A stretch of 64,000 nt of DNA from Planctomycetota bacterium (GTDB lineage: Bacteria > Planctomycetota > Planctomycetia > Pirellulales > Pirellulaceae): NCBI GenBank assembly GCA_024276655.1, contig JAJRWU010000039.1:1-64000 (forward strand). The letters are read 5' to 3'. Under the pieces are notes generated by a model, which was not told where the DNA came from, did not search any database, and saw only the letters and a list, made by a program, of their open reading frames with translations. Position numbers and translations under genes: made by a program. This document shows, piece after piece, positions 116 through 6,400 of this stretch (the first letter of the stretch is position 1; each line of letters starts with the position of its first letter).

Positions 116-354
116 AAAAAGGAGCCGGTTCCTGCACCCTAACAAAAATGCACTATAACCCCTAAGGAAACTTTCAGACAATATCAATCACGGGCAGTAT
201 ATCATGGAAATCGCGATATTTCCGTAATACCGCGTCGTGCATTGCTCAACCAAAATGACGAACGGTTTTCTGAATTACTTCGGCGCGTTATCGGACATAC
301 AGTATCGTGACCGCCAATTGCTAACATGCACGCGGTTGAAAATGTCGCTTTTTT

Positions 355-445
355 CGTTTAACGGCAAGCCGAAGGCGGCTGTGTTTTCTGGTCTGCCCGA
401 ACGCGTGGGCTCAAAACACAGCCGCCTTCGGCTTGCCGTTAAACG
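355..445. repeat. Perfect 33-bp inverted repeat with 25-nt spacer
   Basis: Bases 355-387 are the exact reverse complement of 413-445. The arm begins CGTTTAACGGCAAGCCGAAG. The 25-nt spacer (388-412) can extend the stem through GCCC/GGGC. Such a long perfect stem is larger than an ordinary terminator. The arm end CGGCTTGCCGTTAAACG recurs with one mismatch near 38535-38551, so it may be a dispersed element. Confidence 0.85.
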
Positions 446-577
446 AGCCATTGTTAGCCGCATGAAGTATAACATGCAACGCCGCGTTAACCGAACGCGA
501 CGAACCATGAAATGCACGGGAGATCACCATGACGCGTTTGCCAATGGAGCGTCTTGGAGGAAATCGTTCAGGGAACC

Positions 578-649: not shown

Positions 650-842
650 CGTTAAAAAACTTTGCCCAGCCCCTGGAGCGACACTAATTTTCCGAGCGGT
701 CTTGAGGCTCGTTCGATCAATTACTGTACAAGCTCGGACAATTAATTTCGTGCGATCGTTAGTGTGTTTTTCCATACAGAAATATGCGCAAGTATGAACT
801 CCAATGGCGTGGTTTTTGTTCAATCATTAGGGAGAATCGGCG

Positions 843-1832
843 ATGGGCGGAAACTTGAATCGAAGACATTTTCTCGCGGCCGCTTCGCTTACACCCGCCT
901 TGGCGCTGGGGACGCATCGCGTTTCTTGGGCGCAAGCGCCGGAGTTCAATCCTCGGGTGGTGATCCGCCGGTCTTTCCCGCCGATCAAATCGCCTCCAGT
1001 CGTCACGGCGGACAAGGCCGACAAAAAACTTCGGCCGACGGAGTTAGTGCTTGGCGTTGTGGTGAACGGCGCGGCGCGGGCGTATCCGATCAATATGCTG
1101 ACCGGTCCGCGTCGTGAAATCATCAACGATACGCTCGGCGGTTCGCACATTGCGGCTACGTGGTGACATCTCTGCCACAACGGCATCGTGTATGCCAGAG
1201 ACGTCCAGAACCGCGAATTGAACTTTGCCGTATCGGGCATGCTGTGGAACCGCAGCCTGGTGATGAAGGATATGGAAACGGAAAGTTTGTGGAGCCACTT
1301 GCTGGGCCTTTGCATGCGAGGGCCGCTGAAGGGCGCTGAACTCACGCTGCTGCCCTCGATGATTACCGATTGGAAAATATGGCTCAGCCGGCATCCTCAA
1401 ACCACGGTGTTGCACCTATCGCGGACTTCAACGAACTACCTCGCCGAGTTTTATAAAGACCCGTCGAGGTTCGTGGTGGCCATGGCGGAGGGCGGCGAAG
1501 CTCGCGCATGGTCGTTTGCCGATTTACAAAAACAACCGGTGGTCAACGACGCCTTCGCCGGCAAAAAAATTGTTGTCTTGTTTCAAAAATCATCCAGCAC
1601 GGCGTCGATTTTTGCACGTACTATTGGCGCGAGAACGCTTGTCTTCCAATGGGTTGATGGCAAACTGCAAGACGAACAAACGCATACGCTCTGGGATATC
1701 GCCAGCGGCGTCGCGATTTCCGGTGAGTTGAAGGGGCAGGCGCTGCAACCGGCGTTGGGAATCGTTTCGTATGCAAAGGCGTGGCGCGTGTTCCATCCCA
1801 ATTCCACCTATTGGAACGCGAACGGTTCGTAA
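843..1832 (+). CDS. DUF3179 family exported protein, candidate selenoprotein with in-frame UGA
   Basis: The N-terminus has a Tat-like signal (NRRHFLAAASLTPALALG). The frame stops at TGA 1164-1166 and continues in the same frame to TAA at 1832, giving 329 residues if the UGA is read. Both halves match DUF3179: RAYPINMLTGPRREIINDTL before the stop, and CHNGIVYAR, FAVSGMLWNRSLVM, GPLKGAELTLLPS and a second IVSYAKAWRVFHP block after it. Family members have a CxxC-type motif (TWCxLC) exactly here. This gene reads TW-UGA-HLC, so the stop sits on the first Cys and leaves U-x-x-C at codons 108-111. A hairpin at the right distance follows. The function of DUF3179 is unknown to me; a redox role is inference. 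The alternative is a nonsense mutation or read error (TGC to TGA). Confidence 0.8.
1167..1203 (+). promoter_or_regulatory. Candidate bacterial SECIS element after UGA 1164-1166
   Basis: Upper stem GGCAT (1182-1186) pairs with ATGCC (1192-1196) around the loop CGTGT (1187-1191). Lower stem TCTCT (1169-1173) pairs with AGAGA (1197-1201), which abuts the upper stem on the 3' side; an 8-nt bulge lies on the 5' side. The loop starts 20 nt after the UGA and has G at its second position, within the usual range for bacterial SECIS hairpins. The same spacing and loop start recur in the second UGA gene. Not folded by computation. Confidence 0.5.
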
Positions 1833-2343
1833 TAGTTAAAGACGGATGTTTTAATTCAGAAGCCCGGCTTTTTGAAAAAGCCGGGCTTCTTGCCTACCTC
1901 GCAACGGTCTTGTTCTTGAGCGTTGCCTTAGTGCGTCTGGTGTAAAAATCATCGCTTGAAACTTGCTCTCAAAAAACTATCTGAAAAAGATTTCAAATGA
2001 TTGCTTGACAAGATGCCAAAGCCGCAGACAATGGTGATTCGTTAAGCAACTTCGCTAATCGCGAGGCCGATATCAATGGCTTCGATTTACCAAACGCTTC
2101 TGTTTGGGTATATGAAAACCGAAGAGTCGCGGCACGTCGGTGGATCTTCCATGGAAGTGACGGCGTGCGTCATTCGGCTTTCCGTTTCCGCGAAGCTGCG
2201 TTGAACATAGTGTCTTTGATGATCATCCATCGCAGCGCGGGTGGCGACGACAGACGGAACGCTGTCGGCGGCCCTGGTCGTGGCTCGGAAGTCCCTCCCG
2301 CGCTGGTTTTTTGATCGTGTGTTGTGGCTAGGCGGGAGTCGTT
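1833..2343. other. Intergenic region with terminator, otherwise no gene seen
   Basis: Apart from the strong hairpin at 1858-1890, I see no gene, RNA or repeat. Open frames here are short and lack protein-like composition. The region upstream of 2344 presumably carries the folK promoter, but I could not recognise one. Confidence 0.5.
1858..1890. terminator. Hairpin terminator, AAGCCCGGC family copy 1
   Basis: AGAAGCCCGGCTTTTT (1858-1873) is followed by one base and its exact reverse complement (1875-1890). This 16-bp perfect stem lies 26 bp after the DUF3179 stop. The T-run inside the stem and the strong GC core fit an intrinsic, bidirectional terminator. It is the reverse complement of copy 5 at 38487-38519 apart from the central base. 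Confidence 0.8.
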
Positions 2344-3288
2344 GTGACTACGTGTCTGATGAGCCTTGGCGCCAATCTGGGTGATCGGTCGCGAACGCTC
2401 AACGCCGCGATTGCAAGCCTGGAGCAAGTCGACGGGATTCACGTCTTGGCCCATAGCCGCTGGAGCGAAACCACGCCGGCGGGCGGTCCTCCGCACCAAG
2501 CCGACTTCCTCAACGGAGCGGCGCGGCTGGAAACGACGCTCTCCCCCACGGCATTGCTCGACCAACTGCACCAAGTGGAAAATGCATTGGGACGGCGGCG
2601 AGAGGTGCGTTGGGGCGCCCGCTCGATTGATCTTGATCTGCTGCTCTACGACGATGTTATCGTGGCCACGCCGCAGCTCACCGTGCCGCATCCTCGCTTG
2701 GCGTTCCGCCGGTTTGTGCTGGCGCCTTGCTTGGAAATCGCCCCGGAGTGGGTGCATCCCTTGATCGGCTGGAGTTTGGAGGAGTGTTTCGAGCACTTGC
2801 AAAAGACACCGCGCTCCATTGCCGTGGCGTGCTGTTCAGCGGAGTCGGCAAACACCGTGGCGCGGCTTGGCGCCCAACAAGCCGGTGCGTTTTTCATCGC
2901 CGACCCCGCAGTTGCCGGGAATTGGCGAGATGCTGAAAATGATCTTGCCTCGGCCCCACGGCGGGCCACCGCGCTGGCCGATGCAGCCGTCGAACAGACC
3001 GAATGGGTGAGTGGGTTTTGGTTGGAGCCGCCGTTCGCCGCCGCGCCCCGGCCCACGTTCGTGGTTTGGCTAGACGAACCCTTCTCCGACGGCAATCCGA
3101 GCACACCGCCGGAAGATACCAGCGTTTCAGGCGTTGATTCGTCGGCGCCGTTGCGGAAATACAATCGCGATTTAGGTCGCCGCGTCATGCAGCGCGGGCG
3201 AGGTCCTTGGCTGCAACTTCCCACCGCCGACCTAACCCAAGCCGCCAACGAAGTGGCCGCCGCATTGCTCGCCATGCGCCCGCAATAG
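2344..3288 (+). CDS. folK: 2-amino-4-hydroxy-6-hydroxymethyldihydropteridine pyrophosphokinase with C-terminal extension
   Basis: FolK transfers pyrophosphate from ATP to 6-hydroxymethyl-7,8-dihydropterin in folate synthesis. Residues 1-150 carry the family motifs: SLGANLGDR near the start, ALGRRREVRWGARSIDLDLLLY (RxGxRxxDLDLL signature) and TVPHPRLAFRRFVLAPCLEIAPEW. A GTG start at 2344 keeps the first beta strand before LGANLGDR; a later ATG at 2359 would cut it. HPPK enzymes are usually about 160 residues, but this one has 314. The extra C-terminal half ends GPWLQLPTADLTQAANEVAAALLAM and matches no domain I recognise. It is followed 119 bp later by the sigma-like gene. Confidence 0.9.
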   Translation: MTTCLMSLGANLGDRSRTLNAAIASLEQVDGIHVLAHSRWSETTPAGGPPHQADFLNGAARLETTLSPTALLDQLHQVENALGRRREVRWGARSIDLDLLLYDDVIVATPQLTVPHPRLAFRRFVLAPCLEIAPEWVHPLIGWSLEECFEHLQKTPRSIAVACCSAESANTVARLGAQQAGAFFIADPAVAGNWRDAENDLASAPRRATALADAAVEQTEWVSGFWLEPPFAAAPRPTFVVWLDEPFSDGNPSTPPEDTSVSGVDSSAPLRKYNRDLGRRVMQRGRGPWLQLPTADLTQAANEVAAALLAMRPQ

Positions 3289-3407
3289 AATCGTTTCCCG
3301 GTGGATAAAGCCGGCAAGTGCGCCACCCGACCACTGGTATTGTCTATACTGAAGCCAGCGCACCATTTGCGTCGATAATGTCACCTCCACTCCCACCTTG
3401 CAGCCAC

Positions 3408-6400
3408 ATGGCGTCGCCGAATTCCCCTCGAAATAACTCGCCCGACGCCGCGGCGCGTCTGGTCGAAGAGCATGAAGTCGCGGTGTATTCATTCCTGCGG
3501 ACGCGTGTCGGTTCGGCGTCGTCGGCGCGCGCCTTGTGCCTCGACGTTCTGGTTGCGGTCGGCGGGCGCGGCGGTCTGCCATCGGACGCCGCAACACTGC
3601 GCGGGCAGGTAATCGAGCAGGCGGAAAAACAGTTGCGGGAACACTCCGCCGGGCAAGGCGGCGTCTCCACGATTTGGCGCCAAGCCTGTCTTGCGGTGGA
3701 TAAAAAACGCGGCCGCCTCCCAAAGCTTCAAGAGCACGAAGCACAGCGCCTTCTGGCCGACCTGCCGCCAAGCCAACGGCAGGCGTTGCAATTTTGCTAC
3801 GGCGCCGGGCTCTCCCATCAAGAGATCGGCCAGCGCATGCGCAGAAGCGAGGCGGCTGTGCGTGCGCTGCTCGACAAGGCGCGCGAGCAGTTCATTCGCT
3901 CCAGCGAGCACTTGCCCCAAGGTCTGCCGCGCCGCGCCGCCCAAAACGAACTAACCGACCAAGACCTCCAACAACTCAACGCGCTGCTACGGCAGGCCGA
4001 TGCAAGCGCCGCGGCAGCGTTGGAAGAACTCGCCGACGCTCTGGATCTGGAGGAGTTTCTCTGGCGAGCAAACAGCCGCTCTCGGCTTTCGTCGATGCTT
4101 GTATTGAAACGCATTCGCCGCCGGCGTTGGACGCCCGCCGCCGTGCTCGCGGTGGCCGCCTGCATCGTACTCGTCGTGGGGCTGTATTGGGTGGTGCGTC
4201 CCAAACAAGACAAGCCCATCGTGCGGGCCGCTTCAAACCAGCCGCGGAATAAAAAAGCGGCGTCTCTCAAAAAAACCGCTTCGCCCGGCCAGGAGGAGAT
4301 CGCCTCCGGCAACCAACCCGCGCCGCCGCCGAGCGCGCCGCGTTTGGAAACACGGCCTGAACAAATATCGTCGGCCGAATCGGGCGCCGTGTCGCCGCCC
4401 AAAACCGAAGATGCTTCAAAAGAGTTGACCGCTACCGATCCTTGGTCGGCGGTTTTGCGAAATGAAACACCGCCCGCGTTCTTGGATGTGTGCTTCAACG
4501 ATTTTTTTCAGAAGGGTGGAAACCCGACACGCGCCGAGTTAATGAAATGGCTTACTCCCGCCGCCGACGCCGACGGCGTGATCACGGAAACGCGCCGTCG
4601 CTACGGCCGAACGTCGTTGATCCGAGGCGTGTTCCGAATCAAGGCGCCCTGGCGCCACGACGCCGGTTTTCGGTTTGCCATCGCCGCCAACGGCGTGTTT
4701 CAAATCCATGCCTTTGAGGGCGAAACGGGGCTGTCGTTGGTGCAATACGAACGCAACGGCGTTACTTGGGCGGCGTACAAAACGCGTCGGGCGAAAGCGG
4801 CCAGCCAACCTTTGTCTGGCGTGCTTGCCGCCACCGACGAAGGCCGAGCCAATCGCACGGGCGCCTTGGGCGGCGGGCCCTACGAATTGCGTTGGCGCCA
4901 GGGGCGGCTGGTTTTATCGCGGGGCGATGTCGTCGTGCTTGCAGCGCCGATGGAGCGCCCGCCCGAAGATGTGTATCTGGCGGGGCAGGCCACCGTTGCC
5001 GGGTTGGAGTTAATCAAGACGGCCGACTTTCCCCTGCTGGAAAAATCGCCAGAGCCGAAGTCGGTCGAAATCTCGCCGGCGCCCCAGTGGCAAAAACATC
5101 TCGCCGATGGCGCCCGTTGGCGGATGCTGAAGCCGGGAGTTTGGAAGTTGGAGCGCCCCGCCGCCGGCGCGAACGTCTGGGCCTGCGCTCCGCTCGAACA
5201 GGCAGGGCCTTACGAAGTCGTGCTCGCCCTTTCGCATTTCACGGCGGGCGGCGGCGTGTGCTTGGGCGCCAGTTCGGCAGAACCGCAGTTGCTCATTCGC
5301 TTCCAGGAGAATGATCGTGGCGGCGGACTGGGCGCCGCGATTGTCAGTCCTCGCGACCGGCGGCTGCACCAAACGTTTCCGCTTACCGAAAAGGCGCCTG
5401 CTCCCTTGGTGGGCCAGCGCGCGTGGCTGCGGCTGGTTTTCGCTTGCGGCGTGATGAAATGCTGGCTGGGAGTCGATGGCCAACATTGGGGGGAGTTGGG
5501 AGCGGCCAAAATATCCGGCCGCATCGGCTGGATCGGGCTGCACTGCTCCCTGGGAAAATCGGGCTGCGGCATCCAGCTCGATCGGCTCGCGCTGCGCGAA
5601 CTGCCGAACCTCAAACGGTTGGTCGGGAAAGACGTACGAGAAAAAGCGAGAAGAGTTGACGCCGACGACTTCCCTCAATGGAAACGCCAAGTGCTCGCGC
5701 AACGGCCGGCGGAAATCGAAGAAACCCAGTGGCTACGCGCTTCCATATTGGCCTCGCTTTCCGGTGGCTGTGAGTCGAGGCTGGGCCACGCGCTGCTCGA
5801 CGCCCTGCTCGAGTCGACCCAACGGAGGCTCGCCGCCGAGCAACGCCTTAAAGTGTTGGCCGAAGCAGCGTTGCTTACCGATTTCAACCAACGAGGCCAA
5901 TTGCAGGCGCTGCTCGACCGTTACCATCGCGTGGGCCGCGGCGTGCTGGAGGCGGGCCAGCCGAAACCTTTTTCGTTCATTCGCCACGCACTCATGACCA
6001 CTCCCCTACTAACTCGGCGCGTCGTCCTGCTGGGCGGTGAAGACCTCATGCGCGCCGAACTGTTGGCCAGCGCCGCGGCCGGCGAATGGGAAGATGTGTC
6101 GGGCTCGAGTCGGCAATTTCGTTTTTTCCACCTGGAGGAGCGCGTCGCGATTCAGTCTTGGGCGGAGGCGGCGTCGCTGCGCGAATTGGGGGCGCGGCGT
6201 GAACAGAATGCGCCCGCCGAAAAAAGTGAAAAACGGTTCCCCGAGCGGTGGCGGCATCCTGGAAATATACCGATCGACCGCCGCGCCTACGATATTGCCG
6301 CCGATCTCGATTCCCTGCTGGCGAGTAAGTCGGTTTTGGCGGCGGCGCGGCGCATCGCGGCGCTCGATTTTTCCCGGCCCTTGGGCCTGGCGCCTCGCGA

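Follow-up and report, generated by a model that had tools for sequence, protein, structure and literature searches.

A planctomycete DUF3179 gene with an in-frame TGA: most likely a selenoprotein, with a predicted Rieske-like fold

Introduction

Selenoproteins of the DUF3179 family have been listed before. Tables in two reviews (PMC9312934 and PMC13188914) include DUF3179 as a selenoprotein with a UxxC/T motif. The table row in PMC9312934 credits Zhang and Gladyshev (2007) with a prediction from an Olavius algarvensis symbiont, and the row in PMC13188914 likewise cites earlier work. A complete selenocysteine (Sec) insertion system is also present in two Porphyra-associated planctomycete strains, P1 and P2 (PMC4807772). 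Among the selenoproteins named for these strains are fdhA and fmdB; the term DUF3179 is absent from the accessible text of that paper.

The gene described here was picked out by a sequence-only reading, which took it for a selenoprotein of a family that the reader did not know as one. The last point needs a qualification: since both reviews list DUF3179 as UxxC/T, the kind is known, and our gene is a further member, one of a large clade. Like the known DUF3179 selenoproteins, it belongs to the Pfam family PF11376, and its putative Sec is the leading residue of UxxC. When compared by description with the prediction of Zhang and Gladyshev (2007), the clade differs in its hosts, which are Planctomycetota, Verrucomicrobiota and MAGs labelled Poribacteria. 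Variants with UxxV and UxxE are found beside the known UxxC/T. Cys-type members of the family (TYCPLC and related motifs) have the same domain and the same motif column; they have Cys for Sec, and no hairpin at the corresponding place. In the literature, which was screened mostly by title and start of abstract, we found no published description of a large Planctomycetota and Verrucomicrobiota clade of DUF3179 Sec proteins, or of a Rieske-like fold in this family. A barely described selenoprotein family is thereby extended, and it gains a predicted fold of two Rieske-like domains, one of them with Sec.

The gene and its internal TGA

The window is the whole stretch of DNA that was analyzed, 64,000 nucleotides from a Planctomycetota bacterium (assembly GCA_024276655.1, contig JAJRWU010000039.1). 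The features discussed below are the following:

843-1832, plus strand: coding sequence of the putative DUF3179 selenoprotein, 329 amino acids, in one frame, with PF11376 in both halves and a TAA stop at 1830-1832
843-944, plus strand: Tat-like N-terminal export signal (NRRHFLAAA ... AQA), from the sequence; TIGR01409 match below its cut-off
948-1409, plus strand: first domain, residues 36-189, with a predicted Rieske-like fold, carries UxxC (model m5beb9a3acf03, pLDDT 95.7)
1164-1166, plus strand: putative selenocysteine codon UGA, residue 108, in UHLC; the column has Cys or UGA among relatives
1167-1206, plus strand: putative bSECIS region, core stem GGCAU 1182-1186 / AUGCC 1192-1196, loop CGUGU 1187-1191
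1173-1175, plus strand: second Cys of UxxC (Cys111), presumed resolving Cys, invariant in alignments A2 and A4
1452-1829, plus strand: second domain, approximately residues 204-329, with a predicted Rieske-like fold and no UxxC (PF11376 positions 184-291)
1858-1890, plus strand: perfect 16-bp inverted repeat just past the stop, from the sequence

The frame runs on the plus strand from the ATG at 843 to the TAA at 1830-1832, and TGA 1164-1166 is the sole internal stop. It lies in TW-UGA-HLC, at the first Cys of the DUF3179 CxxC motif. Each half matches PF11376 alone: the upstream half with an E value of 3.2e-14 (53.5 bits, profile positions 3-64) and the downstream half with 9.5e-40 (137.3 bits, profile from position 67). 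The read-through protein reaches 1e-62 and 212.6 bits, with a gathering score of 27, which places it in DUF3179. The two halves do share one frame with this TGA alone between them, as the sequence-only reading had stated.

Cysteine or TGA in related genes

A protein search of the source genome found three DUF3179 places, and in each of them TGA replaces the first Cys codon of CxxC. The motif is TWUHLC in the window copy and in a second one (L002, 46% identity), and SFUAVC in the third (L003). The additional in-frame TGAs (one in L003, three in L002) precede the matched domain, and we did not read them as part of the protein.

We also surveyed 296 genomes of the same order, 56 of which contain DUF3179. 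The motif column is present in 68 of the 72 places examined; 21 of them, in 18 genomes, have TGA and 47 have Cys, in a search whose motif itself requires C or U at this column. This order set leaves out 11 places which start at profile position 92 or later and have no motif column, as well as two weak ones (in G291 and in contig C371 of G282). The four places without the column (L064, L082, L085 and L088) were excluded; three of them have an in-frame TGA elsewhere and were treated as remnants. One further place (L063) was entered as Cys by its pattern; its motif is doubtful, and it was omitted from the tree.

Scanning named genomes yielded 66 loci, which belong to Planctomycetota, Verrucomicrobiota and MAGs labelled Poribacteria. 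The codon is TGA in 64 of them and TGC in the other two (L116 and L138); this is a biased rate, the loci having been found with a profile built from UGA members only (A1). In the 68 motif places of the order set, as in 66 of 66 named loci, the column is thus Cys or UGA, and an in-frame UGA is aligned with a conserved Cys of homologues, as is characteristic of selenoproteins. Both sets overlap (for example, L047 is L091 and L043 is L149, identical in the tree), so that 85 UGA rows correspond to 75 distinct 46-mers.

The closest named relative (L090) comes from the separately assembled MAG SZUA-33. Its protein is 91% identical, with TGA at the same codon, and the locus is syntenic with window positions 812-5732 at about 93% nucleotide identity. 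A second locus of the same MAG (L150) has its TGA too.

Two minor observations concern atypical members of the family. The L064, L082, L085 and L088 places are probably remnants; L064 shares a contig with a Cys copy (L052) and resembles a truncated duplicate. Three loci have the UGA without the second Cys: L059 (1-2274, UPLV), L060 (1-2271, USSE) and L061 (1-2062, USSE), yet they have a strong hairpin of 7-8 bp and would be cases of Sec with no resolving Cys.

The hairpin after the UGA

A hairpin with an NGU loop is found about 18 nt past the UGA in 85 of 85 UGA copies, 84 of them with at least 5 bp and one with 4, and in 0 of 49 Cys copies at that place. The stem corresponds to bases 18-22 and 28-32, counting the U of UGA as 0. 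In the order set, at least five pairs close a five-base loop in all 21 UGA copies, and a stem of five is present in none of the 47 Cys copies. Loop bases 2-3 are GU in 18 of these 21; the three L003-type copies have GGUCU, which also fits, with the loop centre shifted one base downstream. In the named set, 63 of the 64 UGA copies have at least five pairs and one has four; both TGC copies have two.

The sequence of the stem differs among subfamilies, and the hairpin is kept: GGCAU/AUGCC, GUCCGU/ACGGAC, GCUCGU/ACGAGC, CUGAU/AUCAG and GGAGUC/GACUCC are found. The five stem pairs are standard in 99.7% of cells among 72 distinct UGA rows, as against 46.9% in the same columns of the Cys rows. When the partner is slid by 1-3 columns, standard pairing of the UGA rows falls to 14-58%. 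An example is pair 21-29: base 21 opens an Ile/Val codon, and base 29 is the third position of a Tyr codon. UGA rows with Tyr have A-T in 51 cases and G-C in 19, with 0 exceptions in 70, while the Cys rows are mixed (A-C 9, A-T 1, G-C 8, G-T 12). The Fisher value of 1.6e-17 for this pair is overstated, since the rows are related.

Each strand of the window contains 47 TGAs flanked on either side by 60 or more open codons, 94 in all. Within the scanned hairpin distance, TGA 1164-1166 is the only one followed by an NGU-loop hairpin of at least five pairs. Folding energies discriminate less well. The minimum free energy of the window copy (1164-1206) is -14.5 kcal/mol, with a z of -2.44, and it belongs to a longer hairpin over the same stretch, not to the conserved core. 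The core is 2.3 kcal/mol worse when forced, and its pairs have a probability of about 1.5% in the 43-nt fold. Whole-segment folding z values average -0.34 in UGA copies and 0.24 in Cys copies (p 0.01), a weak discriminator. The case for the hairpin therefore rests on conservation and covariation. A downstream hairpin with G/U in a small apical loop, as in a bSECIS, is present, though it is not the minimum free energy structure in the window copy.

Selenocysteine machinery

The source genome is a draft of 5.96 Mb in 328 contigs, 96% complete. SelA, SelB, SelD and tRNA-Sec are all found in it above curated cut-offs: selA with 470 bits (cut-off 268), adjoining selB with 343 bits (cut-off 242), selD with 271 bits (cut-off 125) and tRNA-Sec with 66.4 bits (gathering score 47), which ARAGORN also reports as SeC, anticodon tca. 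An absence of the machinery, which would have spoken against the sequence-only reading, is thus ruled out. At L012 (2-3441), selA and selB are adjacent on the minus strand of contig C296, with tRNA-Sec on a different contig.

The distribution of this machinery among genomes of the order is not even. Every one of the 18 genomes that carry a UGA copy has either selB or tRNA-Sec (at least 62 bits); among the remaining 278 genomes, 63 do (Fisher 1.6e-11). Among the 38 genomes which have DUF3179 and no UGA copy, 21 have one or the other. The tRNA-Sec scores are bimodal (at least 62 bits, or at most 55 bits); only the upper group was used, with a cut chosen after seeing the scores. Single components are missing from a few UGA genomes: G206 has no selB match, and G003 and G282 have no tRNA-Sec match. 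None lacks both. We infer that Sec is very probably inserted at codon 108 of the 843-1832 product. In the mechanism we propose, SelB bound to the hairpin just 3' of the UGA would bring Sec-tRNA(Sec) to this codon.

Predicted fold, export and function

An AlphaFold2 model of the whole protein, from a 40-row alignment, has a pLDDT of 90.6 and shows two beta-rich halves, with low confidence over residues 1-26. A model of the first domain only (52 rows) reaches a pLDDT of 95.7 and is also mostly beta. All 50 structural matches listed for this domain are Rieske-type proteins, with Z from 8.6 (8hn2_A, rmsd 2.5 over 92 residues) down to 6.3, where values below 8 may reflect a common arrangement only. 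The second half of the whole model also matches Rieske-type proteins, the best one listed with a Z of 8.1 (4p1b_H, residues 218-311). Among the structural matches listed, neither thioredoxin nor another fold is named. Foldseek matches are weak, with a best E of 0.1 for the first domain and 0.036 for the whole model, and none at or below 0.001.

The predicted fold of both repeats resembles that of Rieske [2Fe-2S] ferredoxins and domains. By sequence, neither Pfam nor PDB gave a match to Rieske proteins, and the search for solved relatives returned 0 entries with alignment A2 (39 of the 66 named loci) at E 1 and 0 with alignment A4 (51 of the 66) at E 10. The ligands of the Rieske cluster form the pattern CxH ... 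CxxH. None of the 134 DUF3179 copies has this pattern, even when U is accepted in place of C. In view of the weak Foldseek values, the missing sequence match and the absent ligand pattern, we do not class the window protein as a Rieske protein; our proposal is a Rieske-like fold that lacks the cluster and carries a Sec/Cys pair. We also considered UxxC as a replacement of Rieske box II and rejected it: by the aligned ranges, residue 73 of the domain model precedes the expected first ligand, whose position we assume from Rieske ligand numbering, and the ligand pattern is absent.

A selenoprotein whose UxxC is a metal or cluster site of a Rieske-type electron carrier, instead of a catalytic redox pair, is the alternative which survives best. 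It is suggested by the resemblance of both domains to Rieske [2Fe-2S] proteins in the predicted structures. Nevertheless, we consider it unlikely: besides the absence of the ligand pattern, alignment A4 has no invariant His, and the three UGA copies without a second Cys also argue against it.

We favour a redox pair, U-x-x-C (Sec108-Cys111), in the first of the two predicted Rieske-like beta domains. Sec108 would attack the substrate, Cys111 would resolve via a selenenylsulfide, and a partner would reduce the pair again. The window protein would then be an extracytoplasmic selenol/thiol oxidoreductase, which we regard as somewhat better than an even chance. Gene neighbourhoods point to no substrate: no conserved neighbour gene of this kind was found, and the most widespread neighbour cluster is present in 7 of the 66 named loci.

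The sequence-only reading also had this protein exported through Tat. The twin-arginine motif can be recognized by eye as RRHFL in the window copy and TRRSFL (TRRSFLAAA) in L090. On the other hand, the NCBI Tat model TIGR01409 gives 13.3 bits, below its cut-off of 16.7, and most relatives have signals or anchors of other kinds, as judged by eye. An NCBIfam search with the three DUF3179 proteins of the source genome returned no family except this Tat model, below threshold. Export is suggested because the N-terminus is Tat-like in the window copy and L090 and of other kinds in most relatives; the Tat route is plausible for the window protein.

As a broader and tentative suggestion, to which we give slightly less than even chances, DUF3179 proteins may be cluster-less relatives of Rieske domains, duplicated in tandem, in which a Cys/Sec pair took over the redox role. 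The Sec form, common in Planctomycetota and Verrucomicrobiota and sent out to the cell envelope, would then be a class of selenoenzymes on a Rieske-like fold, not a thioredoxin fold. The fold is a prediction only, and it is the part most likely to surprise a specialist. If true, a Sec pair on such a fold would be a testable oddity, because, according to a review, the majority of characterised selenoproteins are built on a thioredoxin-like fold (PMC13188914).

Selection, evolution and other readings of the TGA

The window gene was compared with L090 on both sides of the TGA. After the TGA, dN is 0.049 and dS is 0.24; before it, dN is 0.053 and dS is 0.21. In both cases dN/dS is about 0.2-0.25 (843-1832), which indicates purifying selection. 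The downstream half is therefore conserved in this close relative, not degraded.

These values bear on the possibility of a pseudogene, namely a Cys-type DUF3179 gene cut in two by a nonsense mutation and now decaying in its downstream half. A last-base change to A would be enough to convert TGC or TGT into TGA, and remnant-like DUF3179 places are found in other genomes (L064, L082, L085, L088). However, the same TGA is shared by 64 of 66 named relatives and by all three copies of the genome itself, selection continues past it, and the hairpin is found only with TGA copies. A pseudogene is thus very improbable. We hold an equally low opinion of a UGA read as another residue, either Cys through a near-cognate tRNA or Trp through a changed code. 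Partial misreading would be compatible with a Sec system, and has no direct support; against it we have a bSECIS-type hairpin which is tied to UGA and missing from Cys copies, the co-occurrence of UGA copies with selB or tRNA-Sec, and a tRNA-Sec with a TCA anticodon. A sequencing or assembly error at 1164-1166 might be feared in a draft of 328 contigs, and is the least credible explanation of all, as the TGA is also present in L090 (93% nucleotide identity over the stretch), in 63 more named loci and in two paralogues.

The sequence evidence thus indicates that 843-1832 is most likely a selenoprotein gene, neither a pseudogene nor a read error, because the sel genes are present, the TGA is conserved, a covarying hairpin is linked to it, and purifying selection acts downstream. 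On this central point the sequence-only reading holds, in agreement with the machinery, the Cys/TGA column and the intact downstream halves. Standard annotation would divide this gene in two or label it as broken; it now becomes a well-supported selenoprotein, and the same applies to dozens of DUF3179 genes in Planctomycetota and Verrucomicrobiota.

We built a tree of 78 rows by a quick method; it includes 11 of the 66 named loci and has several long branches. At least six switches between Sec and Cys are required on it, and well-supported branches force at least three of these. The TWUHLC proteins fall into a single clade, which also contains some Cys members. A particular case is L037 (1501-2379), a lone UGA member (VYUTLC) amid a Cys clade (VYCTLC). 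This UGA is likely a separate change from Cys to Sec.

Flanking repeats

Two inverted repeats flank the gene. The 16-bp repeat at 1858-1890 is probably a transcription terminator, although a terminator consensus scan did not list it. Upstream of the gene, window positions 354-446 contain a perfect inverted repeat, with arms of 34 bp separated by 25 nt. This element recurs in the genome: with 40 of the 232 first-look candidates scored, at least 40 places match it at 92% or more, often within about 25 bases of a contig start. It is a REP- or MITE-like palindromic family.
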